From IMG/VR virus record IMGVR_UViG_3300011261_000048, positions 29,470 through 93,469 of that record: DNA of 64,000 nucleotides; one strand, written 5' to 3'. Position numbers and translations under genes: made by a program. The stretch comes from a virus. This document shows, piece by piece, positions 12,272-53,342 of the stretch. Position 1 is the stretch's first letter, and the number at the start of each line of letters is the position of its first letter. Below the pieces are notes generated by a model that ran no database searches, was not told the origin of the DNA, and saw nothing but the letters and a program-made list of their open reading frames with translations.

Positions 12272-12559
12272 CTATTTATCTTCTATAATCTCTGATACGG
12301 GACTCATCTTACTAAGCATCTCTTCAGGTATATCCTTTTGGCCACCTTCAATAGATACTAGTTTTGTTTCTCTCTCTTTATTAATTTCTCTTAAGATTGC
12401 TATGTTCTGATTATCCATGAACTCCATTAGAGCTAACATAGTCATTCTTCCCTCAGCATTCTCACATAGGGCAATGACTCTTAAGCCATCTTTACTTACC
12501 CTTGTCATCATGTTATTAAGTACATTAGTTGCACTGTTTACTTCTCTCTCTTTACTCAT
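12272..12559 (-). CDS. Small helical protein of unknown function (95 aa)
   Basis: A helical 95-residue protein overlapping the end of the GroEL gene by eight bases and followed closely by the TerL-associated gene. No recognisable motif. Close packing shows it belongs to the late operon. Confidence 0.6.
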   Translation of the reverse strand: MSKEREVNSATNVLNNMMTRVSKDGLRVIALCENAEGRMTMLALMEFMDNQNIAILREINKERETKLVSIEGGQKDIPEEMLSKMSPVSEIIEDK

Positions 12560-14078
12560 TTACTTCCTTTTTAATTATTACACAGTTAGTAGTAAATAAC
12601 ATGTTTGCTGCACTAACAGCATTTGTTATAGTTGCCTTAATTACTAAAGCAGGATCTACTATTGTACTCTCTATTAACTCTGCTTTTAGTATAGCAGCTT
12701 CACCTTTAGTTAACTCTCCATTCTCACATAGTGTTACCCATAACTTTCTCATACTATCAAATACAATTGGGGCAGCTACGTTACCTTTAAACTTAGGCTC
12801 ACACTTATAGATTAGGTTCTCATAAGCCATACATCCACCTTTAACAACTCCTTGTTCTAGTGCACTCTGTACTGCTCTAATAGTATCATCTAGTCTATCT
12901 TTCTTCTCTTTAACTTCAGCCTCATTAGCTCCTCCTACGTAGATAATAGCTGCACCTGAAGTAAGTAGACCTAACCTCTTCTTGAAGTTCTTAGCTAATC
13001 CTTCCTTATCGTCCTCTATCTTATCTCTGTAGTATTGAACTCTTTCAGCAATAGCTTCAGGTACACCTTTCCTACCAATAATAGTAGTTTCCTTTAAAGT
13101 AATGTTAACTGCATCAGATAAACCTAATGCTCCTACAGTAATACTCTTAACGTCCCATCCTTTCTTCCTAGATATAAAAGCTGCTCCAGTAGCAATAGCT
13201 ATATCTTCTAGTGCCTCTGTTCTAGCATCAGCAATAAAAGGAGCTCTAATAATCTCTATTAAAGAACCATTAGTCTCGTTATTATAAGCAACTATACTAG
13301 CAGCTTGTTCAGTAATGTCCTCACATATAACAAGTAAAGGTCCACCACAACTTTCCTGTAACTTTACTATCTCTACAGCATCTGTTTGAGTAGTGATCTT
13401 CAAGTCAGTAACTAGTATCTTACACTCTAGGTGCTTAACACTAGTTCTACCTCCTACTAAAGCAGGAACAATGTGGCTTCTATCTAACTTAATACCTTCA
13501 GTAGCATCTAAACTAGTCTCGTAGTTTCTTGAATCAAATACAGACACAATACCTTCTACCCCTATTACTTTAAATGCATCACTTACTAATCCAGCAATAT
13601 AACTATCACCATTACAAGCTACCATAGCAACATCTAAAACATCGTCTATAGTAATGTGTTTAGTATTAAGTTCTAGCTCTTCTAGTAGTACCTTTACTAT
13701 CTCATCAATTGAGTTCTTTAATTGAGTAGTGTTTAAAGACTTATTACTATTAAGTACGTTAAATCCTTCCTCTACAATATACCTAGTAAGTATAGTAGTT
13801 GAAGTAGTACCATCTCCAGCAATCTCAGCAGTTTTTGCTGCAGCCTGTCTAATGATCTGGGCTGCAACATTTTCTACTGGGTCTACAAGGTTAATACTGT
13901 TAGCAACAGTTACACCATCTTTTGTAATATGAGCATCGTTAAAGATTTTAGACAACGCTACATTTCTTCCAAAAGGTCCAAAGGTTGTACTTACTGCATC
14001 AAAGATAGTTTGACTACCTTTTAATAATCTTTCTTGTACTTCCTTCCCTTTAATTACCTCACAAGTCTCTCTTACCAT
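12552..14078 (-). CDS. groEL: Phage GroEL-type chaperonin (508 aa)
   Basis: Clear Hsp60 features: TFGPFGRNV (33-40), TKDGVTVA (52-59, with the Asp equal to E. coli D52), GDGTTSTTIL (88-97, containing the D87 equivalent), and near the end RLDDTIRAVQSALEQG-VVKGG, which keeps the Asp equivalent to the hydrolytic D398. It is about 40 residues shorter than E. coli GroEL and ends in KKEVNE, without the Gly-Gly-Met tail. The gene overlaps its GroES partner by seven bases. It should form a folding chamber for phage proteins, probably capsid or giant virion proteins. Having both partners suggests independence from the host chaperonin. Confidence 0.95.
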   Translation of the reverse strand: MVRETCEVIKGKEVQERLLKGSQTIFDAVSTTFGPFGRNVALSKIFNDAHITKDGVTVANSINLVDPVENVAAQIIRQAAAKTAEIAGDGTTSTTILTRYIVEEGFNVLNSNKSLNTTQLKNSIDEIVKVLLEELELNTKHITIDDVLDVAMVACNGDSYIAGLVSDAFKVIGVEGIVSVFDSRNYETSLDATEGIKLDRSHIVPALVGGRTSVKHLECKILVTDLKITTQTDAVEIVKLQESCGGPLLVICEDITEQAASIVAYNNETNGSLIEIIRAPFIADARTEALEDIAIATGAAFISRKKGWDVKSITVGALGLSDAVNITLKETTIIGRKGVPEAIAERVQYYRDKIEDDKEGLAKNFKKRLGLLTSGAAIIYVGGANEAEVKEKKDRLDDTIRAVQSALEQGVVKGGCMAYENLIYKCEPKFKGNVAAPIVFDSMRKLWVTLCENGELTKGEAAILKAELIESTIVDPALVIKATITNAVSAANMLFTTNCVIIKKEVNE

Positions 14079-16728: not shown

Positions 16729-16747
16729 AGCTATATAGCTTATAAAG

Positions 16748-16818
16748 TTTTGGGGAGAAGACTTGAACTCCTATTACCTGGACCAAAACCAGGTGTCCTG
16801 CCATTAGACGACCCCAAA
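16748..16818 (-). tRNA. tRNA-Gln (TTG)
   Basis: Acceptor TTTGGGG/CCCCAAA, anticodon arm CCTGG-TTTTGGT-CCAGG giving UUG, T arm AGGAG-TTCAAGT-CTTCT. No CCA encoded. Confidence 0.9.
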
Positions 16819-16823
16819 ATATG

Positions 16824-16895
16824 TGGAGATAACAAGATTTGAACTTGTGTCCCTAGTTCTTCAGACTAGTGCTAGGCCAACTCAGCTATATCTCC
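16824..16895 (-). tRNA. tRNA-Phe (GAA)
   Basis: Acceptor GGAGATA/TATCTCC with A discriminator, anticodon arm CTAGT-CTGAAGA-ACTAG giving GAA, T arm ACAAG-TTCAAAT-CTTGT. Confidence 0.9.
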
Positions 16896-16900
16896 ATATG

Positions 16901-16971
16901 TCTATAAGTCAAGATTCGAACTTGAGTACTCCTACGTCCAAGGTAGGCATGAAACCTGGCTTCGCTTATAG
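16901..16971 (-). tRNA. tRNA-Pro (TGG)
   Basis: Acceptor CTATAAG/CTTATAG with A discriminator, anticodon arm CCTAC-CTTGGAC-GTAGG giving UGG, T arm TCAAG-TTCGAAT-CTTGA. First of three tRNAs spaced 5-6 bases apart on the minus strand. Confidence 0.88.
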
Positions 16972-29418: not shown

Positions 29419-29473
29419 AGCCCTTTGAGGTTCACTGTAAATATAGTCTAGCCCTGATGAGTGTGAAGGGGCT
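29419..29473 (+). ncRNA. Helix-closed element, 55 nt
   Basis: AGCCCTT pairs with AAGG(G)GCT, with CACT/AGTG inside, then TTATTTAA. It may act as terminator. TATAGTCTA-like sequence is repeated inside. Confidence 0.45.
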
Positions 29474-31198: not shown

Positions 31199-31583
31199 GG
31201 GCCTGTTCTGGAATTGCTTTATGTAGGAAAATTATAATATCAGCAGTCAGTGGTGACTTTAAATACTGTAGGTGAATTTCAATAAACGGAAATACAATCA
31301 AAAATGAAGTTGGCTCTAGAGCTGACGTAGAAGCTCCAATGATTAAGTTCTTTGGAGGTGACGTAACAGAAGGTTCTGTTATTGCTCCAGCAATGGAGAT
31401 GGCTATTGCAGCCTAAACCCAAAATAGTTTCTTAGTTCTATAAAAACTAAGTGGTGGAGGTTAACATCTAATGTTGACCCTAGACTAATTCTGAAGTTAG
31501 TCTTTAAATAAGTATCAGAGTAAGCTGTATAAATATTATATTTAGAATATGTGAATACAAGGGTTCGACTCCCTTCAGGTCCA
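31199..31583 (+). ncRNA. ssrA: Phage tmRNA with a 42-codon tag
   Basis: GGGCCTG (31199-31205) pairs with CAGGTCC (31576-31582), with A as discriminator. The T arm is AAGGG-TTCGACT-CCCTT. The 5' end GGGCCTGTTCTGGAAT matches the tmRNA signature GGGGCTGATTCTGGATT. Helix P2 is AAATTATAATATCAGC with GCTGTATAAATATTATATTT. The tag frame resumes at GGA (31288), after AAAC as in Bacteroidetes tmRNAs, and reads GNTIKNEVGSRADV... to ...APAMEMAIAA with stop TAA at 31414. Bacterial tags are usually about 8-35 residues. CCA is not encoded. It would rescue stalled ribosomes and tag their products. Confidence 0.9.
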
Positions 31584-31587
31584 CTAC

Positions 31588-43229: not shown

Positions 43230-44219
43230 ATGTACGGTAAAAAAGTAGTTAGTCAGGATAATATTCTTGCATTAATAAATTCCTACGATATATTTAAGAA
43301 GTATATCGTAGGGTTTGTTGATGTAGGTAAGGCATTTAAAAGTGAGTTAAGACCAGATAAATCCCCTACTTGTGTAGTGTTTAAAGGAAATACAGATTTA
43401 CTATATAAAGATTATGCAGTAACAGGAGCATTAAGTTGCTTTGGTTACATTATGCAGAAATATAGTTGTAATTACTTTCAAGCATTAGATATAGTAAACA
43501 GGGATTTTAATCTAGGTTTTGAGTCATCAGTGTCAGACTATGAATATACTCCTACAGCTTCTATTGTCTATAATGTAGATGTATCTAAGATAGAATCAAC
43601 ACCAGCTGATATTAGAGTTAGTGTACGTAATTGGAATGAGAATGATAAATTGTATTGGCATGACCAGTATGAATTTACAGTTAAAGAGTTAGAAATAGGT
43701 AAAGTATACCCTTTAGAGGGGTTTTGGCTTAATGATTCTTACTTTAAAGCACATTCTACAGCATATGGTTACTACTTTGGTTTCAAAGAAGGTAGAGAAC
43801 TATGGAAGATATATCAACCTTATAGCAAGAAAGCTAAATTTTTTACAAATACAGGTCCAGATGATTATCAAGGATTTGATTTACTCCCTGAAACTGGAGA
43901 TAGGTTAATAATTACTAAATCATATAAAGATGTACTAGTCTTAAGGAAACTTGGCATACATGCTATAGCTCCTCAAAGTGAGTCATCTATTATAGATAAA
44001 GATTTTTATGATTACCTACTTACACGTTTCAAAGAAATCAGATTATTATTTGATAATGATAAGCCTGGAATAACAGCAGCTAATAAGTTACAAGAACTAA
44101 TTGGCATACAACACTTTATATTGCCTCAAGATACTAAAGATTGTGCTGACTTTGTACATAAATATAACTACGCTAAGTTATTAGAATATATTAACCGATG
44201 TTGGGAAGTTATGAAGTAG
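43230..44219 (+). CDS. DnaG-type primase (329 aa)
   Basis: An N-terminal domain is followed by a TOPRIM domain with LIITKSYKDVLVLRKLG (with the catalytic Glu position replaced or shifted) and LLFDNDKPG (DxD) near 270. This matches crAss-like DnaG primases. It overlaps the RusA-like gene by 22 bases. Confidence 0.82.
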   Translation: MYGKKVVSQDNILALINSYDIFKKYIVGFVDVGKAFKSELRPDKSPTCVVFKGNTDLLYKDYAVTGALSCFGYIMQKYSCNYFQALDIVNRDFNLGFESSVSDYEYTPTASIVYNVDVSKIESTPADIRVSVRNWNENDKLYWHDQYEFTVKELEIGKVYPLEGFWLNDSYFKAHSTAYGYYFGFKEGRELWKIYQPYSKKAKFFTNTGPDDYQGFDLLPETGDRLIITKSYKDVLVLRKLGIHAIAPQSESSIIDKDFYDYLLTRFKEIRLLFDNDKPGITAANKLQELIGIQHFILPQDTKDCADFVHKYNYAKLLEYINRCWEVMK

Positions 44220-44447
44220 TGATTCCTGAATGGGAAAGCAGCTACCAGAAATCTGCAAAAAGAATGCCTAAGTATTGGCTATGGACAGAAAGAGAAAAAT
44301 TACCAATAAAGCATACAGAAAACTTAAGACGCACCCCTCTAATTATAGGAGGTAAAGCGTATTGCTGTAATGATTTAGAGGAAAGGTTTCTTAAAAATAC
44401 CAAAACTGCAGGAAAACCTAATCTTTGGGTAATGAACGGTCAGGATT
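44198..44447 (+). CDS. RusA-like nuclease, exon 1
   Basis: The N-terminal 83 codons, ending LWVMNGQD plus the first base of a Tyr codon. The reading frame would stop at TAA one base later unless the intron is removed. Joined to exon 2 it reads NGQDYNKMLYNATLNWRL, total 200 aa. Confidence 0.75.
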
Positions 44448-44459
44448 AAACACAAATAG

Positions 44460-44490
44460 TTTGAAAGTATACAGATTTTAACTATATTTG
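44460..44490 (+). promoter_or_regulatory. Host-type promoter inside RusA intron
   Basis: TTG (44461-44463), exactly 19 bases, then TATATTTG (44483-44490). ATG follows after three bases, so the RNA could be leaderless. Confidence 0.75.
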
Positions 44491-44493
44491 TAT

Positions 44494-45075
44494 ATGGAAA
44501 AATTAGAACAACTTATAATAGGATCAATGTTAGGAGATGGATATTTAGATAAAATATCACATACATTGAAAAATTCAAGATTATCTATAGCTCACAGTGC
44601 TAAACAAAAAGAGTATTGTGAATATAAACATAGTATATTAGCTGAAAAAGAATTAGCTGGTAAACTTTGTTACAATAAGATAGTTAATGATAGGTATAAA
44701 GAGGGATTTATTGAAGAGTATAGGTTTCGGAGTAAGACGAATCCTATATTTACTGAATATAGAGAACTTTTTTACAAAAACAAGAAAAAGATTGTACATA
44801 GAAGTACTATACAGAAAATGAATGCTTTAGGATTAGCCATATGGTTTATGGATGATGGAGCTAAAACAATTTCTGGATATCTGTTATGTACTCAATCTTT
44901 TACTAGGAAAGAAAATAATTTCTTAAGAAAATTACTTAAAGATAAATTTAATATTGAAACAACTTTGCAACCGCAAAGTAATATGATATATATCCGAAGT
45001 AAATCTAAAGAATTATTTACTTCTACTATTAGTCCTTATGTTATAGAATCTATGAGATATAAGTTATTTATATAG
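44494..45075 (+). CDS. LAGLIDADG homing endonuclease in RusA intron (193 aa)
   Basis: Motifs IIGSMLGDGYL near the start and LGLAIWFMDDGAK near 110 form the two LAGLIDADG helices. ATG at 44494 is chosen by the promoter position; a TTG lies six bases upstream. Its stop overlaps the intron guide sequence by one base. Confidence 0.88.
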   Translation: MEKLEQLIIGSMLGDGYLDKISHTLKNSRLSIAHSAKQKEYCEYKHSILAEKELAGKLCYNKIVNDRYKEGFIEEYRFRSKTNPIFTEYRELFYKNKKKIVHRSTIQKMNALGLAIWFMDDGAKTISGYLLCTQSFTRKENNFLRKLLKDKFNIETTLQPQSNMIYIRSKSKELFTSTISPYVIESMRYKLFI

Positions 45076-45371
45076 GTCCTGAATAAACTATGTGAATTGC
45101 TGGAACACTAAGTGAAATAATAAGTGACAGATGCTGGGAATGGTTACGCTCTGTTTATGCTAACCTGGAAAGAACAGCTTATTATTTTGTATGTCAATCA
45201 GCAGCCAAGGCTCTCAGAAATGAGTTCAAGGTTCAACGACTAGTACATGGAGTCTCAGCATTAAGTTGGAGATAGTAAAGTACCAAGAGCGCATAGCACC
45301 TCATGTGGAGGTGATGATATAGTCTGAACTATATGGAAACATATAGAAGTGCAGGATAAAGAGCCAGCACG

Positions 45372-45724
45372 ATAACAAAATGTTATATAATGCTACTTTA
45401 AATTGGCGTTTACGTAAAACCGTGGCTAAATATTACCATACTTATTTTTCTAAATACATCAAAGCACAACTTAAGAAACCTATTATTATACCTGAAGGTA
45501 AGTATCTATCTATTTCATGTGATATATATGAAATAAGACGTAGAACTATGCCTGATGTGTCTAATATGTGGCTACTAGAGAAGTTCTTTGAGGATTCTTT
45601 GCAAGAGTGTAAAGTAATTCCAGGGGATGACCCTGATTATGTATTAGAAAGTGGTAGAAAAAGATATCACTGGGTTGAAAATGAAGAAGATAGAAAACTG
45701 GTGTTTACTATCAAAATAATTTAA
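45372..45724 (+). CDS. RusA-like Holliday junction nuclease, exon 2
   Basis: PDVSNMWLLEKFFEDSLQEC then KVIPGDDPDYV matches the RusA pattern D-x-x-N-x-x-K-x-x-x-D...DD. It should resolve branched DNA before packaging. The frame opens at codon two of exon 2 after splicing; translation alone from ATG 45380 would give only this part. Confidence 0.72.
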
Positions 45725-45833: not shown

Positions 45834-46055
45834 ATGGAAGATGAAGAATTAAAAACAAAAATAGAAAGCATAATAGGATACAAGCCTAAAGTATTACTGG
45901 CAGATAAAATCAGATATGCTTTGGAAGACGCTTATGATAAAGCTAAAAAATCACTAGAAAGATCCTCTTCAGGAGAAGAGTTTATTACAAACAAAAATAA
46001 GTTTGACGAGGCTGTTAAAACTTATTCATTATTTATGTTAAAAATCACAAATTAA
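45834..46055 (+). CDS. Small helical protein leading the Ubl cassette (73 aa)
   Basis: Charged helices (KIRYALEDAYDKAKKSLERS). One base before the Ubl-like gene, so part of the same operon. No family recognised. It could be a cassette adaptor. Confidence 0.55.
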   Translation: MEDEELKTKIESIIGYKPKVLLADKIRYALEDAYDKAKKSLERSSSGEEFITNKNKFDEAVKTYSLFMLKITN

Positions 46056-46056
46056 G

Positions 46057-46353
46057 ATGAGAAAAATTACAATTGTATCAACTAAGATTGACGGGAAAAA
46101 AGAATTAAATTCAAGTGCAACTACATGGGGAGAGTTAAAACCTGAATTAGAAAATAACGGTATCAGTATTTCTGATATGAAAGTTATGGAGAAGGTTTCA
46201 AAGATGACACTTGATAGTGATGCAGCAATGCTACCTACAGGAGATGTTATTCTTTTCCTTACACCTGGTAAGGTGAAAAGTGGTAGTGATGAAATTACTG
46301 CCCACCAAGAAGCAATGGTTGCAAAACTACGTGCTCTTAGAGATAGCATTTAA
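46057..46353 (+). CDS. Ubiquitin-like modifier candidate, beta-grasp (98 aa)
   Basis: The strand pattern MRKITIVSTKIDGKKELN, a helix (WGELKPELENNG), a middle strand and DVILFLTPGKVKSG looks like a beta-grasp (ubiquitin/PRTRC protein C type). The fold ends near KVKSG, and a 23-residue helical tail (SDEITAHQEAMVAKLRALRD...) follows. The tail might be removed by the JAB protease two genes down, exposing a C-terminal Gly. Strong context: E2-like, JAB and E1 genes follow on the same strand. It ends at a terminator. Confidence 0.5.
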   Translation: MRKITIVSTKIDGKKELNSSATTWGELKPELENNGISISDMKVMEKVSKMTLDSDAAMLPTGDVILFLTPGKVKSGSDEITAHQEAMVAKLRALRDSI

Positions 46354-46360
46354 ATATATA

Positions 46361-46387
46361 AGGGGGGCTTATGCTCCCCTTTTTTAT
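46361..46387 (+). terminator. Terminator between Ubl candidate and E2-like gene
   Basis: AGGGGGGC - TTAT - GCTCCCCT followed by TTTTTT. It would make more Ubl transcript than enzyme transcript. Confidence 0.85.
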
Positions 46388-46405
46388 TAACTTAAAAATT
46401 ATAAT

Positions 46406-47575
46406 ATGTCAGAACAAGATGACTTTGCATTATTAGAAGCCAGATTAGCTGATGATAGTAATGTAACAGTAATAGAAAATACTTCAGTACCTAGTGTACC
46501 AGAAGTAGTGGAGGAAGTAGTTGTAGACAGTATACCTGAACCTATTATTACACCTATTGTAGTAGAGAAGACAAAACCTAAAGAGACTAGATTAGAAATG
46601 AGAATAAGACTAGTTAAAGAGGTAGCAGAGGAAATACATGGAGGAAATTGGGATTTTATTGCCCTTAAAGATTACCCTTTAGATTATGATTCTAAATATC
46701 TTACTACTGCTAGATTTGCATTAACTATACATTTTCCAGAGTTTGTAATAACTAATAGTAGAGGACATATACATACTATAAGAGATTTATATGTTAGAAT
46801 GTACTTTAATAGTAGTATGAGTCATTTACAAGGATGGTTTGGTACTAGAAGTACGTATAGTTATCCAGAATTTAAAAGTAAATATGGTCATTCCCATTTA
46901 CCAACTATTACCAGTAATGATGGCACTAGAATAAGTTCTTTTGGTAGATTTTGTTTAGGAGGAGATAGTGATACAGGAAGTATAGTATCAACCCTAACTG
47001 TAGAGGAATGGAATATAGAAGAATTTAAGAATGCACTATTAATACTACATTCTTATGTAGTATGGGAATCTATAGAAGGAGGTCCTTATAGGAGAATGGA
47101 AAATATCACTATGAAAGGGGGAAGTAGTGGGGCATATAGTCCTGGTACTACTGCTATAGAGCAAACATTTAAGAGGTATTGTATGGAATCTGAAATTTAT
47201 CCTGTATTTACTGTAGATACGTCATATGATGTACCTTCAATTAAAGTACAAAATGAAGCAGAGTTAGAAGTAGCATTAGCTGTAGGACTTAGCCCAAATT
47301 ATATAAGATATAGAGATAGTAATGGTGATATCCATACTATTGATGCTTCTACAAACATAAGTACTATTAACAGATCTATCAGTAATATAAATAGTAAACA
47401 AATACCTTTCTTTACTTTTAAAGGAGTAGGTGTTAAAGCAAAAGTATTAGAAATGGATAATACAGAGGATACTAATGAAGCCATAGTGCATATAGCCCAT
47501 CCCTATGTTACTAAGTTTGCTATAGCACAATTAGAAAAAGAGGCTAATATATATTTATTAAAAATTAAAAAGTAA
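46406..47575 (+). CDS. E2-like ubiquitin-conjugating protein candidate (389 aa)
   Basis: After an acidic, Val/Pro-rich leader (1-60), residues about 100-190 follow the E2 layout: FALTIHFPEFVITNSRG, HIHTIRDLYVRMYF, YPEFKSKYGHSHLP, then GRFCLGG, which mirrors the eukaryotic E2 HPN...G-x-x-CLG, with Cys183 as the likely catalytic Cys. A second domain (about 255-389) is of unknown type. It would accept the modifier from E1. The E2 call is by motif and cassette context. Confidence 0.55.
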   Translation: MSEQDDFALLEARLADDSNVTVIENTSVPSVPEVVEEVVVDSIPEPIITPIVVEKTKPKETRLEMRIRLVKEVAEEIHGGNWDFIALKDYPLDYDSKYLTTARFALTIHFPEFVITNSRGHIHTIRDLYVRMYFNSSMSHLQGWFGTRSTYSYPEFKSKYGHSHLPTITSNDGTRISSFGRFCLGGDSDTGSIVSTLTVEEWNIEEFKNALLILHSYVVWESIEGGPYRRMENITMKGGSSGAYSPGTTAIEQTFKRYCMESEIYPVFTVDTSYDVPSIKVQNEAELEVALAVGLSPNYIRYRDSNGDIHTIDASTNISTINRSISNINSKQIPFFTFKGVGVKAKVLEMDNTEDTNEAIVHIAHPYVTKFAIAQLEKEANIYLLKIKK

Positions 47576-47578
47576 AAT

Positions 47579-48805
47579 ATGAGTTTAAAAGATGATGGTA
47601 AAGTTCATAGTAGAACTGTAGTACCTATAAAAGATAAAGCTAAGTTAATTCTTAGTAAAGAAGTAGTAATGAAAATTCATTATTTACATACTAGAGTAAA
47701 GAATAATACAGAATGGAGTGGTATTTTAGTATTTAATACCAAAGAAGGGAGTATAGATAACCCTGCTAATTGGGTATTAGAAGCAGAAGATTTTATCTTT
47801 ATGGATGTAGGTACAGGAGCATATACAGAATATGATTTTGATACAGATGATACGTACTCTTTTGATAAGTATACTGATGCTATGGCAGAAGGTAAGAGAT
47901 TAGGTCATATCCATACTCACCATAATATGAAGACTTTCTTCTCAGGTACTGATATGTCAGAGTTACATGAAAATGCACCAAATCATAGTTACTATGTAAG
48001 TTTAATTGTAAACTACAAGGAACCTGATGAGTGGTGTGCTAAAGTAGCATTTGTAGGAGAAGAAAAAGTATCTGGTACTATAACTAGAACTAAGAATTCT
48101 CTATTTAACCTGTTAGGATTTGGTAGTGAAGTAACTGAAACTATTGAGAAAGTAGTTCCTATTCTGTATACTATAGATTTAGATTTAGAGTTAGCAGAGG
48201 AAATTAAACCTTTCTATGATAGAGTTACTGAAATATGTACTCCTAAAGTTGTTAAAAGAGCTGTAGGAAGAGCTGTAGGAGCATCTACTCACCATGCTGG
48301 ATGGCATGGAGGATTTAGGGATTGGGATTTACCTACTTTAGGTACTTTAAAAAGTAAAACACCTACTTTATTTGACAAAAAAGAGCCAGAGATTCAAAGA
48401 AGACCTGCAGGATTATATAGTAAACCTTCAGTTATGGATTTTTTACCTAAACTAGCTTATGCAGATTTACAATCTAAAGCTAGAATAGGGGAAGTGTTTA
48501 AAACTGCTACAGCGTTACCTGATGTACATATAGAAATATTAGTGGAACAAATGGAGGAGAATTTTGAAGATTATATAGCAGATTTCTTTGCTATAAATAA
48601 ACTGACAGATTTAGATACTTTCTGTGTGGCTTTACAAATAATAGACACATGTACGATATATGATGACACTTATTTATATAATTGTCTATCTGAAGTACTA
48701 GCAGTTTATTTAGATGTAGATAGAGATGCAGAATTTGATAAAAAAGTAATGCTATTAACTAATTTAAAAGATACAACAAAATGGGCAGCAATGACAGCAA
48801 TATAG
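47579..48805 (+). CDS. JAB/JAMM metalloprotease (408 aa)
   Basis: The JAMM zinc site is complete: Glu45 (NTEWSGIL), H110-x-H112 (GHIHTHHN) and S122-x-x-D125 (FSGTDMSEL). JAB proteases process or remove ubiquitin-like modifiers. The C-terminal 200 residues are unrelated and may bind targets. The gene overlaps the E1 start by 25 bases, so the two are coupled. Confidence 0.88.
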   Translation: MSLKDDGKVHSRTVVPIKDKAKLILSKEVVMKIHYLHTRVKNNTEWSGILVFNTKEGSIDNPANWVLEAEDFIFMDVGTGAYTEYDFDTDDTYSFDKYTDAMAEGKRLGHIHTHHNMKTFFSGTDMSELHENAPNHSYYVSLIVNYKEPDEWCAKVAFVGEEKVSGTITRTKNSLFNLLGFGSEVTETIEKVVPILYTIDLDLELAEEIKPFYDRVTEICTPKVVKRAVGRAVGASTHHAGWHGGFRDWDLPTLGTLKSKTPTLFDKKEPEIQRRPAGLYSKPSVMDFLPKLAYADLQSKARIGEVFKTATALPDVHIEILVEQMEENFEDYIADFFAINKLTDLDTFCVALQIIDTCTIYDDTYLYNCLSEVLAVYLDVDRDAEFDKKVMLLTNLKDTTKWAAMTAI

Positions 48806-49197
48806 ACAATAAAAAAGTAAGATTCAGTGATGCAGATTGGTATAAATCTGGTCCTGAAGATATTATTGTAGGTGGAGTTGGAGGTATTGGTTCCTGGGTA
48901 GCATTATTGCTGTCCAGGATTGGCCATGAACTCCATATCTACGATGATGATACAATAGATGAAACAAACATGGCAGGACAACTTTACCCTATTTCAGCAA
49001 TAGGTAAAAGTAAAGAAGTAGCTGTTATGGAGATGATTAGAGATTTCTCAGGAACACGTTGTTCTTCAAATGGTAGATACACAAAGGATTCTTTATATTC
49101 TCCTATAGTGTTTAGTTGCTTTGATAACATGGAAGCTAGAAAAGTAATGTTTGAGAAGTGGGCAGCTGAAGAGGATAGAGAATTATTTGTAGATGGT
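48781..49197 (+). CDS. E1/ThiF-like activating enzyme, exon 1 (139 aa)
   Basis: DIIVGGVGGIGSWV (28-40) is the nucleotide-binding loop. DDDTIDETNMAGQLYP and GKSKEVAV then SCFDNMEARK match the ThiF/E1 adenylation core. The exon ends at VDG (GGT), where an intron intervenes. The reading frame would stop two codons later. Spliced protein is 235 aa. Confidence 0.9.
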
Positions 49198-49739
49198 AGA
49201 GCATAATATGAAATTTTTTCGTATATTATACAATCTGCCCCTGTTAGTAGTAATATTAACAGTGGAGAGGATGAATTGCTGGAAAGCTAAGTAGAAATAA
49301 AATATTGCGTTGAAAAATAACTCGCTTAATTGTTGGTGAAAGATATATACGCATATAGGAACCCCCGTTTGGAAGTAGTAGGTTAAAAACTTCCCCTAGA
49401 TGATTAGCAAAGGGTTAGGAGCTAATTATTCGGAATAAAGCAAGAAGACTCCCTTAGCTCCGTCTTAAGAGTTGACAGGTTATACGGGTAAGCCGTGAGA
49501 TACTTCAAATAGAAAGAATCTAAAAACTAGAAAGGGTTTAACTAGCCCTTTTGTATTTTTATATGCCAATCAGCAGCCAAGCCATAGACACATCTATGGA
49601 AGGTTCAGAGACTACCTGAGCACTAAAGTGTGCTTAATAACAGGAAGTAGATAGGGTTAGTAACCTATTGAAAAAGCGTCCTCCACCCTAATAGGGTGAT
49701 GATATAGTCCGTGCCTATATGAAAATATAGGAGAGCACG
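49198..49739 (+). ncRNA. Group I intron in the E1 gene, no endonuclease
   Basis: The splice junction is fixed by P1: exon GGT plus intron AGA pairs with TCTGCC (49234-49239), with U-G at the cut, extended by ATAATAT/GTATATTAT. It ends in ACG. Core blocks GCCAATCAGCAGCCAAG, AGAGACTA and GATGATATAGTCCG match the RusA intron. About 230 bases (49320-49545) of peripheral sequence hold no gene. Confidence 0.9.
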
Positions 49740-50030
49740 AGAATGCTTGCAGAAACAGGTATGGTGTTTCTAGTTCAAAAAGGACAAGAGGACCAATATA
49801 GAGCAGAGATTTTTGCTGATTCAGAAGTTGAAGATGCACCTTGCTCTTTTAAAGCTACAAGTCATTGTGGTTCATTTATAGCTTCCTTAATGGTAGCAGG
49901 ATTAAATAATTACCTAGCTAATAGGTATATTAATGCAGATATTAGAAGTATGGATTTCAGAATTGATTTTGAATTACCTCTATTAAATGTACAAGCTACT
50001 AACGTAGTAGCTGAAGAAGTAATAATTTAA
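49740..50030 (+). CDS. E1/ThiF-like activating enzyme, exon 2 (96 aa)
   Basis: Resumes R-MLAETGMVFLVQKGQ (DGRMLAETG across the junction), then APCSFKATSHCG with Cys174 and Cys182, either of which could be the thioester site, and ends with beta strands. It completes the adenylating enzyme of the cassette. Confidence 0.9.
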   Translation, partial: RMLAETGMVFLVQKGQEDQYRAEIFADSEVEDAPCSFKATSHCGSFIASLMVAGLNNYLANRYINADIRSMDFRIDFELPLLNVQATNVVAEEVII

Positions 50031-51842: not shown

Positions 51843-52651
51843 TTTTAACAACAGAGAAAAATGTTTCTGTAATTATTACAGAAGAGAACCCCAGAACAAT
51901 ACATGTTAGTCCAGCACATGCTGACTACGAAGTATTAGATTCTGAAGGTAATATAGAAAGCATAAATTATGGCGGAGAGTACAAGATACACAAAAATAAA
52001 ACAATAAACCTAAATAAAACAAAATATAAACTAACTAATATAAAGAAAATAAAGGCTACCGCAAATAAGCCAGCATATTACAAACTTATAACAAATAACG
52101 GTTTAACAAAAACGTTTAACTTTATTATGCCCTTATTAGGGGATAATAGGGCGTTTTTTAAATTTTCTACACAATTTGTCAATGCATTTATAGGGTATGA
52201 GCCCTATGGAGATTACGGAGATAGTATATATTTACTTTACCGTTTTAGTGGGCAATTAGATTATATAAAATTTGAAGAACAACTAATGGAGCATCCTTGG
52301 TACAAAGAAACAGTAGATGTGGATAAATACCAAGTATTATATCAATTTGATATTCCAGAAGAACATAAAAAAGACGTAAATTTATTAATTAAAGGTAAGT
52401 ATTCTAGTGTTAGTGTAAGCACTAAAGAAAGGATACTAAGATTCCATAATTCTAGGGAAACTAGCACATTAGGACAGATTTTAAGTAAATCACCTATACG
52501 TAAGGAGTCCCTAGAAAAGGATTTACTACTAGATACCCCTATACCTGAAGATGTAGACTTATATAGTGTATTTTATCATGGAGATGAGATATTTAGAAAT
52601 CATTTAAGACTTGATAATAGTAAATTAGACAATAATAAGTTAGATGAATAA
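51827..52651 (+). CDS. Hypothetical protein (274 aa)
   Basis: Beta-rich body. Ends with repeated LDNSKLDNNKLD. Overlaps the exonuclease gene by 16 bases and the glycosylase gene by eight. No family recognised. Confidence 0.55.
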   Translation: MGRSIVLTTEKNVSVIITEENPRTIHVSPAHADYEVLDSEGNIESINYGGEYKIHKNKTINLNKTKYKLTNIKKIKATANKPAYYKLITNNGLTKTFNFIMPLLGDNRAFFKFSTQFVNAFIGYEPYGDYGDSIYLLYRFSGQLDYIKFEEQLMEHPWYKETVDVDKYQVLYQFDIPEEHKKDVNLLIKGKYSSVSVSTKERILRFHNSRETSTLGQILSKSPIRKESLEKDLLLDTPIPEDVDLYSVFYHGDEIFRNHLRLDNSKLDNNKLDE

Positions 52652-53342
52652 ATTAACAGAATGGTATCTAAAGGAATTAGGAGAGGGGTGGTACAATGTA
52701 CTACGGCCTTTTCTGGTTTCTGAAGATATGGAGACAATAAGAAAAACAGTACTAGAAAGGAGGAAAAGTTCCGTAGTTATGCCTAAAAGTACTGAAATGT
52801 TTGAAGCATTTAAACTATGTAAATGGGAAGATGTGAGGGTAGTAATAGTTGGGATAGAACCTTATCATATAGCAGGACATGCTACAGGATTAGCGTTTAA
52901 ATCTAAGAAACTATACCCTTTACATCCTGTAGTAAAAGAGATATTTGAAGAAGTAGAAAGAGATGTGTATTTTAAGGAGCAAGATTTACATCTAGGTCAA
53001 ATAAATGATGTATCTTTGTGGGCTTCTCAAGGAGTACTTTTACTAAACAGAGCCCTTACAGTTCAGAAAGATAAACAACACTCTCATATTAAATTATGGG
53101 AGCCGTTTACGTCTAATATATTTAAAGTTTTACGAGAAAAAACAGGATTAATTTATTTACTTTGGGGTAATTTTGCTCAAAGTTGTAAACCTTTAATAGA
53201 TAGTAAATCAAATTACATATTAGAAGCAGGTTTTCCTGCAACTGGAGCATTTACTAGAGGGTTTAAAAATTGTAACCACTTCTCACAAGTAAATGATATC
53301 ATAACTAAACAAAATGGAGAGGAATTTAAAATAAATTGGTAA
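52644..53342 (+). CDS. Uracil-DNA glycosylase family 1 homologue with altered active site (232 aa)
   Basis: The fold is recognisable: VVIVGIEPYHIAGHATGLAF aligns with VVILGQDPYH...GLAF, and LLLNRALTV keeps Asn135. However the catalytic Asp is Glu72 and the preceding Gln is Ile. In the HPSPLS motif the aligned sequence is AGFPATGAFTRGF, so the catalytic His is Phe197. It may be inactive on uracil, act on another base, or serve as a binding protein. Confidence 0.85.
   Translation: MNKLTEWYLKELGEGWYNVLRPFLVSEDMETIRKTVLERRKSSVVMPKSTEMFEAFKLCKWEDVRVVIVGIEPYHIAGHATGLAFKSKKLYPLHPVVKEIFEEVERDVYFKEQDLHLGQINDVSLWASQGVLLLNRALTVQKDKQHSHIKLWEPFTSNIFKVLREKTGLIYLLWGNFAQSCKPLIDSKSNYILEAGFPATGAFTRGFKNCNHFSQVNDIITKQNGEEFKINW

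Follow-up and report, generated by a model that had tools for sequence, protein, structure and literature searches.

A conserved four-gene cassette of crAss-like phages is predicted to encode a ubiquitin-like protein-conjugation system

The window analyzed here, a 64,000-nt stretch of viral DNA (positions 29,470 to 93,469 of IMG/VR record IMGVR_UViG_3300011261_000048, 93,469 bases in all), carries four consecutive genes that we propose form a ubiquitin-like (Ubl) conjugation cassette: a small Ubl modifier precursor, an E2-like protein, a JAB/JAMM metalloprotease and an E1/ThiF enzyme whose gene contains a group I intron (Table 1). All four proteins match PHROGs of unknown function. An earlier note, made from the sequence of this DNA, had drawn the cassette as 45834-50030; its right end holds, but the cassette begins at 46057, as the 73-amino acid (aa) open reading frame (ORF) at 45834-46055 has no relative in our survey and was dropped as unconserved. 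The coupling of the JAB and E1 genes by overlap, also remarked on there, amounts to 25 nt.

Table 1. Cassette genes, the E1 intron and two context genes, in window coordinates.
Feature	Position	Strand	Details
Ubl modifier precursor	46057-46353	+	98 aa; beta-grasp 1-70, tail PGKVKSG to Gly76, 22-aa extension
E2-like conjugating enzyme (probable)	46406-47575	+	389 aa; candidate UBC core ~62-219, H162-S-H164, Cys183; C-terminal domain ~248-389
JAB/JAMM metalloprotease	47579-48805	+	408 aa; E45, H112, H114, S122, D125
E1/ThiF exon 1	48781-49197	+	ATP-binding GxGGIGS, D57, N63, Q67, K78, D115; PF00899 4e-12
Group I intron in E1	49198-49739	+	542 nt; RF00028 64.6 bits; within conserved DGR codons
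E1/ThiF exon 2	49740-50030	+	Catalytic Cys174 (numbering of spliced 236-aa protein); phrog_15670, like exon 1
DnaG-type primase (context)	43230-44219	+	phrog_12622 8.6e-44; upstream neighbor in 113/120 relatives
Uracil-DNA glycosylase-like gene (context)	52644-53342	+	Clusters with its counterpart in 60 relatives; called uracil-DNA glycosylase in the crAss001 and FpV4 annotations

The window phage is correctly labeled crAss-like, because PHROG profiles identify portal, major head (major capsid) and terminase proteins and the terminase shares 50% identity across 99% with that of Cellulophaga phage phi14:2 (Crassvirales, Steigviridae). When viral contigs were scanned with single sequences, only one contig came back, with an identical cassette, and alignment queries were needed to find more. 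Profile scans of IMG/VR detected 119 relatives of the E2-like protein and 294 of JAB, and our survey covered the loci of the best 80 of each, retrieved by E2 or JAB only, with neither Ubl nor E1 used as bait. Using hidden Markov models built from five seeds, we found the Ubl-E2-JAB-E1 order complete in 150 of 166 loci. All four genes lie in this order and on one strand in 110 of the 120 distinct E2 relatives, which answers the suggestion that the gene content of related phages be compared; in the remaining 10, the contig is short or truncated or the gene set is incomplete. Searches with tblastn matched phage records with E2 (74), JAB (74) and E1 (78), including Steigviridae (crAss001, DAC15, cr111_1) and Flavobacterium phages FpV/FPSV. 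A search with JAB patterns through 84,980 species of bacteria and archaea found one relative, on a 6.8-kb contig of a Spirochaetia metagenome-assembled genome, and at that sensitivity the family is therefore essentially viral. Close pairs reveal purifying selection, with ratios of nonsynonymous to synonymous substitution rates (dN/dS) of 0-0.5 for the Ubl core, 0-0.32 for E1 and 0.15-0.38 for JAB. The survey and these ratios rule out chance or mis-called ORFs, and the cassette is real, conserved and apparently functional in a major crAss-like phage lineage.

The first gene encodes a protein with the fold and tail of a Ubl modifier. Its AlphaFold2 (AF2) model, built from 91 relatives (pLDDT 85.7), is a single beta-grasp domain with the element order bb-a-bb, and Foldseek searches of the PDB with this model return mostly ubiquitin-like proteins (ubiquitin, SUMO, NEDD8 and DWNN; best E 1e-4). 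The fold check set beforehand for the 98-aa protein thus came out in favor of the proposed beta-grasp. Gly76 is invariant (118/118 relatives), and 113 of the 118 tails end in Ser/Ala/Gly-Gly (SG in 99, AG in 12, GG in 2). Wherever scored, the Gly is followed by further residues, exactly one in 13 cases, up to more than 150 and never zero, which implies maturation by JAB; this is the pattern that a processed precursor would be expected to leave. Comparison of close pairs shows the tail to be usually the faster-evolving part (crAss001 vs tikkala: core dN/dS 0, extension 0.38), and long tails have a weak GKNxTQxST motif in common.

The enzymes expected to process and activate such a modifier carry complete catalytic residues. 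The five JAMM residues of JAB are 100% conserved in about 112 relatives, so the complete site reported in the earlier note stands, with its histidines renumbered from H110/H112 to H112/H114; the match to PF14464 (Prok-JAB; 3.6e-5, 24.1 bits) falls just under the 25-bit cut-off. The PF00899 (ThiF) match of E1 exon 1 is above cut-off, and G32, G34, D57, N63, Q67, K78, D115, R120 and C174 are invariant among E1 relatives, Cys174 in 106 of 106. A stop at 49206, not mentioned in the earlier note, interrupts the E1 reading frame, which continues from 49743. The two parts both align with phrog_15670 (positions 7-126 and 148-222 of 228), and between them Rfam RF00028, the group I intron family, matches 49215-49731, its score standing against a gathering score of 50. 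We deduced the splice points from the protein alignment and the U/...G/ rule (slashes mark junctions). Splicing at GATGGT/AGA (49197/49740; AGAATG follows) drops the intron, which has no homing-endonuclease ORF, and gives an E1 that aligns through the DGR(L/M) of its relatives. A pseudogene is ruled out as the reason for the broken frame, for which the intron accounts. Because Cys174 is encoded in exon 2, E1 should depend on splicing. The E1 gene is also split in six other relatives, and in one (L030) a group I intron lies between the halves at a position different from that in the window. Elsewhere in the window, a RusA-like Holliday-junction resolvase gene (44198-45724) is apparently split into 44198-44449 and 45380-45724, both in the same neighbor cluster; what separates them is probably a group I intron (25.2 bits, less than the gathering score) with a LAGLIDADG endonuclease at 44488-45075.

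The 389-aa protein has several of the characters expected of an E2, as the earlier note had read its layout. Cys183, within an FCLG motif, and His164 are 100% conserved in 120 relatives, and E221 and G225 are invariant too. The AF2 model (80 relatives, pLDDT 80.3) has the topology a-bbbb-(HxH)-Cys-a-a, with a helix at 62-78, strands at 82-88, 102-116, 122-134 and 141-151, the HxH following strand 4 at 162-164, and helices at 189-199 and 204-219 after the Cys. This is the order of secondary-structure elements of a UBC domain. In BFVD, the model matches crAss-like homologues and unnamed viral proteins; A0A516LAI7 and four similar viral entries have significant structural likeness to it (E 1e-5 to 9e-4), and the family may, judging from these models, reach past crAss-like phages. 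The E2-like gene evolves faster than E1 and JAB, with dN/dS up to 0.89 against 0.2-0.35 in the same pairs (e.g. L108/L114/L115), perhaps reflecting changing targets.

The cassette is embedded in a replication module. Neighbor clustering placed it just downstream of a DnaG-type primase in almost all of the 120 loci (Table 1), and the other neighbors include a DnaB-like helicase (86 loci), uracil-DNA glycosylase (UDG) and further replication genes. Around the window cassette lie the primase, Sak4-like, UDG-like and other replication or unknown genes, and the strand is opposite to that of the window's head and packaging genes. FpV4 has its UDG between primase and Ubl, and in crAss001 the cassette is gp79-gp76, flanked by the primase gp80 and the UDG gp74. 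Transcription of the crAss001 middle genes, largely of replication function, starts at 10-30 min and precedes that of the structural genes (PMC8375218), and by position the cassette probably belongs to this middle-expressed class. Outside the module, the window also contains a GroEL-like chaperonin gene near the terminase and portal genes (12552-14078, minus strand; phrog_5725, 3.6e-94), a tmRNA (31199-31586, plus strand; RF00023, 53.1 bits) and three tRNA-like genes (16747-16971, minus strand), one of them found by Rfam only.

A unifying model based on these data is that the cassette is a phage-encoded system that conjugates a Ubl to replication or host proteins during mid-infection, a reading to which we give a probability of about three in four on the strength of sequences and models. 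The Ubl would be made as a precursor from which JAB cuts off everything past Ser-Gly (Gly76), and JAB probably deconjugates as well. The spliced E1 would adenylate Gly76, capture the Ubl on Cys174 and hand it to Cys183 of the E2-like protein, which in turn would join it to target proteins, lysine being the simplest attachment site. The place of the cassette in the middle-expressed replication module points to replication or recombination proteins as likely targets, or to host proteins to be switched off or protected in mid-infection, rather than to virion parts. Several results weigh against this model. The profile searches suggested for the 98-aa and 389-aa proteins gave no convincing Pfam match, neither to any Ubl family (91 Ubl members) nor to a UBC family (80 E2 members). 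A Foldseek search of the PDB with the whole E2-like model gave nothing significant, the nearest relevant entry being Cap2 (E = 1.2), and the Ubl and E2-like proteins have no profile similarity to proteins C and B of the plasmid PRTRC (ParB-related, ThiF-related cassette) systems, with hhalign probabilities below 1%.

The alternative that survives best keeps the same biochemistry and changes its purpose: the cassette could be a counter-defense or host-takeover device with host defense or regulatory proteins as targets, its slot being an exchangeable host-manipulation module. We inspected the slot content of three cassette-free Steigviridae. In phi14:2, the primase-UDG slot (L177:22025-27669) holds GGACT, ATP-grasp, COOH-NH2 ligase, glutamine amidotransferase and amidoligase genes; in cr108_1 (L181:3393-10449) it holds a RimK-like ATP-grasp, amidotransferases, a COOH-NH2 ligase and a homologue of the phi14:2 amidoligase; and in cr116_1 (L182:20607-24763) a rIIA-like gene and a "protector from prophage-induced early lysis" gene (rIIA/rIIB). 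The rIIA/rIIB genes are the T4-type anti-exclusion pair. A scan for close relatives of the phi14:2 amidotransferase returned phi14:2 itself only. Such replacements are what an exchangeable takeover module would produce, and the fast divergence of the E2-like protein is what the target-recognition part might show in a conflict. However, the other slot occupants come from three phages only, and the cassette is near-universal in the surveyed relatives rather than patchy like many counter-defense genes. We know of no defense system that is a target of the cassette, and we regard a takeover role as possible, at somewhat less than even odds. According to later papers that cite Iyer et al. 2009 (PMC4431377, PMC7824862), peptides and proteins are the proposed substrates of amidoligase cassettes. 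That one amide-bond-forming module is swapped for another in the same slot suggests that the slot-mates are related in function, although three cases are few. By extension, and tentatively, a major phage lineage would possess a dedicated Ubl signaling pathway acting on host or replication proteins midway through infection; its slot, open to amidoligase cassettes or rIIA/rIIB-type genes, would be a "protein-modification or host-takeover" locus of the Steigviridae.

Ubl conjugation could also proceed with three components, E1, JAB and Ubl, if the Cys-containing 389-aa protein were a partner of another kind, perhaps a substrate adaptor or some other thiol enzyme, rather than an E2. The lack of a significant PDB structural match and of a UBC profile match would fit this reading, but the UBC-like order of elements, the HxH after strand 4 and the Cys in FCLG argue against it, as does the gene's place relative to JAB and E1, which is that of PRTRC protein B with its active-site motif GxxCxG. 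We consider it unlikely. The UBC fold expected in the earlier note therefore stands as a prediction from topology, invariant residues and context, and the E2 identity of the protein is probable, not proven, because Foldseek against the PDB, Pfam and PDB sequence searches all returned no significant UBC match.

Sulfur transfer of the ThiS/MoaD-ThiF kind, serving cofactor, nucleotide or tRNA modification rather than protein tagging, is the role implied by the GenBank name of E1 ("thiamine biosynthesis protein ThiF"), and PRK08644 ThiF is the best NCBIfam match of E1 (2.3e-13). NCBIfam scores are nevertheless far below cut-off, sulfur transfer leaves no role for an E2-like protein with an invariant Cys, and the spliced E1 is without CxxC zinc pairs; the annotated neighbors are replication genes, with no thiazole synthase, molybdopterin or sulfurtransferase gene annotated among them. 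The E2-like partner, the missing CxxC pairs and the replication-gene surroundings lead us to reject the thiamine/sulfur-transfer annotation, and we find such a role highly improbable. Just as improbable is the tagging of virions during assembly or maturation, which had been raised in the earlier note and has a precedent in the Ubl domain and JAB peptidase of lambdoid tail clusters (Iyer 2006, PMC1779556): those lambda TAPI/TAPK clusters are without E1 or E2, and it is disfavored by the place of the cassette in the replication module, by a coding strand other than that of the window's head and packaging genes, and by the probable middle timing.

To our knowledge, this four-gene phage set has apparently not been described before as a system. 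The claim that it was new to this phage group holds for the system, of which we found no description in open-access full text (subscription papers, supplements and preprints lay outside the search), but not for its parts: E1 and JAB had been annotated one by one in crAss001 and relatives. In GenBank, E1 is named "thiamine biosynthesis protein" or "E1 enzyme family protein", JAB "metalloprotease domain", and Ubl and E2 "hypothetical"; neither ubiquitin nor JAB nor ThiF is mentioned in the main text of the paper on the crAss001 genome or in that of the 2021 crAss-like survey. Bil and CBASS (cyclic oligonucleotide-based antiphage signaling system) Cap2/3, bacterial Ubl systems with tested function, defend bacteria against phages. 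If our model is true, phages such as phiCrAss001 and the Flavobacterium phages FpV use Ubl-conjugation chemistry too, and a function would be given to four genes of abundant gut phages now annotated as hypothetical, metalloprotease or thiamine biosynthesis. The carriers are a large group of gut and aquatic phages, including the lab-grown crAss001; cultured hosts exist, and the model is hence testable. The K74-S75-G76 tail predicts a Ser-Gly mass tag on lysine of +144.05 Da after trypsin.

Of the known systems, PRTRC is the one whose gene order the cassette parallels, as had been predicted. Plasmid PRTRC loci read (ParB)-E-C(Ubl)-F-B(E2)-A(JAB)-ThiF, and they have in common with the phage cassette the order Ubl-(F)-E2-JAB-E1, separate genes, a single-domain E1 and a location on a replicon. 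Homology extends to JAB, which resembles PRTRC A (hhalign 94.8%, E 5.5e-8), and to the E1 family, which resembles PRTRC ThiF (hhalign 99%, E 5e-18), although TIGR03736 (PRTRC ThiF) scores 39.5 bits with E1 exon 1 alone against a cut-off of 144.75. The window cassette has no NCBIfam match to the protein B and C families, the companion genes ParB, E and F are not among the phage cassette neighbors, and the phage Ubls always have a C-terminal extension whereas most fetched PRTRC C proteins end at or near the Gly. We therefore reject PRTRC membership: neither Ubl nor E2 is recognizable as C or B, and ParB, E and F are missing, even though gene order, E1 and JAB are shared. Two plasmid PRTRC or PRTRC-like cassettes (L172/L174) have replication neighbors too, primase and dnaN in Anabaena or ssb in Rhodanobacter. 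In the type 6d systems, the usual E2 His is missing and one His follows the Cys instead (Iyer et al. 2006, PMC1779556), whereas the conserved His of the phage E2 lies before it; by gene content, type 6d probably corresponds to PRTRC (NCBIfam TIGR03736-TIGR03738).

Bil (BilABCD), the other proposed parallel, has the same four-gene set of Ubl, E2, E1 and JAMM protease, and its protease likewise exposes the terminal Gly of the Ubl. However, BilA is a tandem of two Ubl domains, the E1 of Bil has two adenylation domains and a Cys domain, and BilB has a CEHH motif (PMC11354881). The phage has one Ubl domain and a 236-aa E1, the window E2-like sequence contains no CEHH-like Glu/His/His spacing after C183, and Bil is a bacterial defense whereas the cassette is carried by a virus; Bil membership is ruled out on domain architecture. 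CBASS Cap2/Cap3 and the 6A-MBL E1-E2 fusions use the same bacterial E1/E2/JAB chemistry, and PADLOC E1-E2 profiles match the phage E1 (up to 8e-8), but the phage has separate E1 and E2 proteins and a dedicated Ubl as well, with no nucleotidyltransferase seen beside the cassette. The lambda tail proteins I (Ubl) and K (JAB plus NlpC/P60) are likewise a phage-encoded Ubl and JAB peptidase; unlike the cassette, they lie among tail genes and without E1 or E2. The phi14:2 and cr108_1 amidoligase cassettes share the syntenic slot and are also predicted to form amide bonds on peptides or proteins, with unrelated enzymes (ATP-grasp, COOH-NH2 ligase, glutamine amidotransferase, amidoligase) and no Ubl. 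Xanthomonas jumbo phages PhiXhv-12/15/16 (L176:3256-7506) encode a ThiF-like E1 (PF00899, 9e-21) near topoisomerase genes and adjoining 892-aa and 70-aa unknown proteins, possibly another phage Ubl system. Because homology to PRTRC is limited to E1 and JAB, the His placement differs from type 6d and the architecture differs from Bil, the phage cassette is a separate branch of a known kind of Ubl conjugation.

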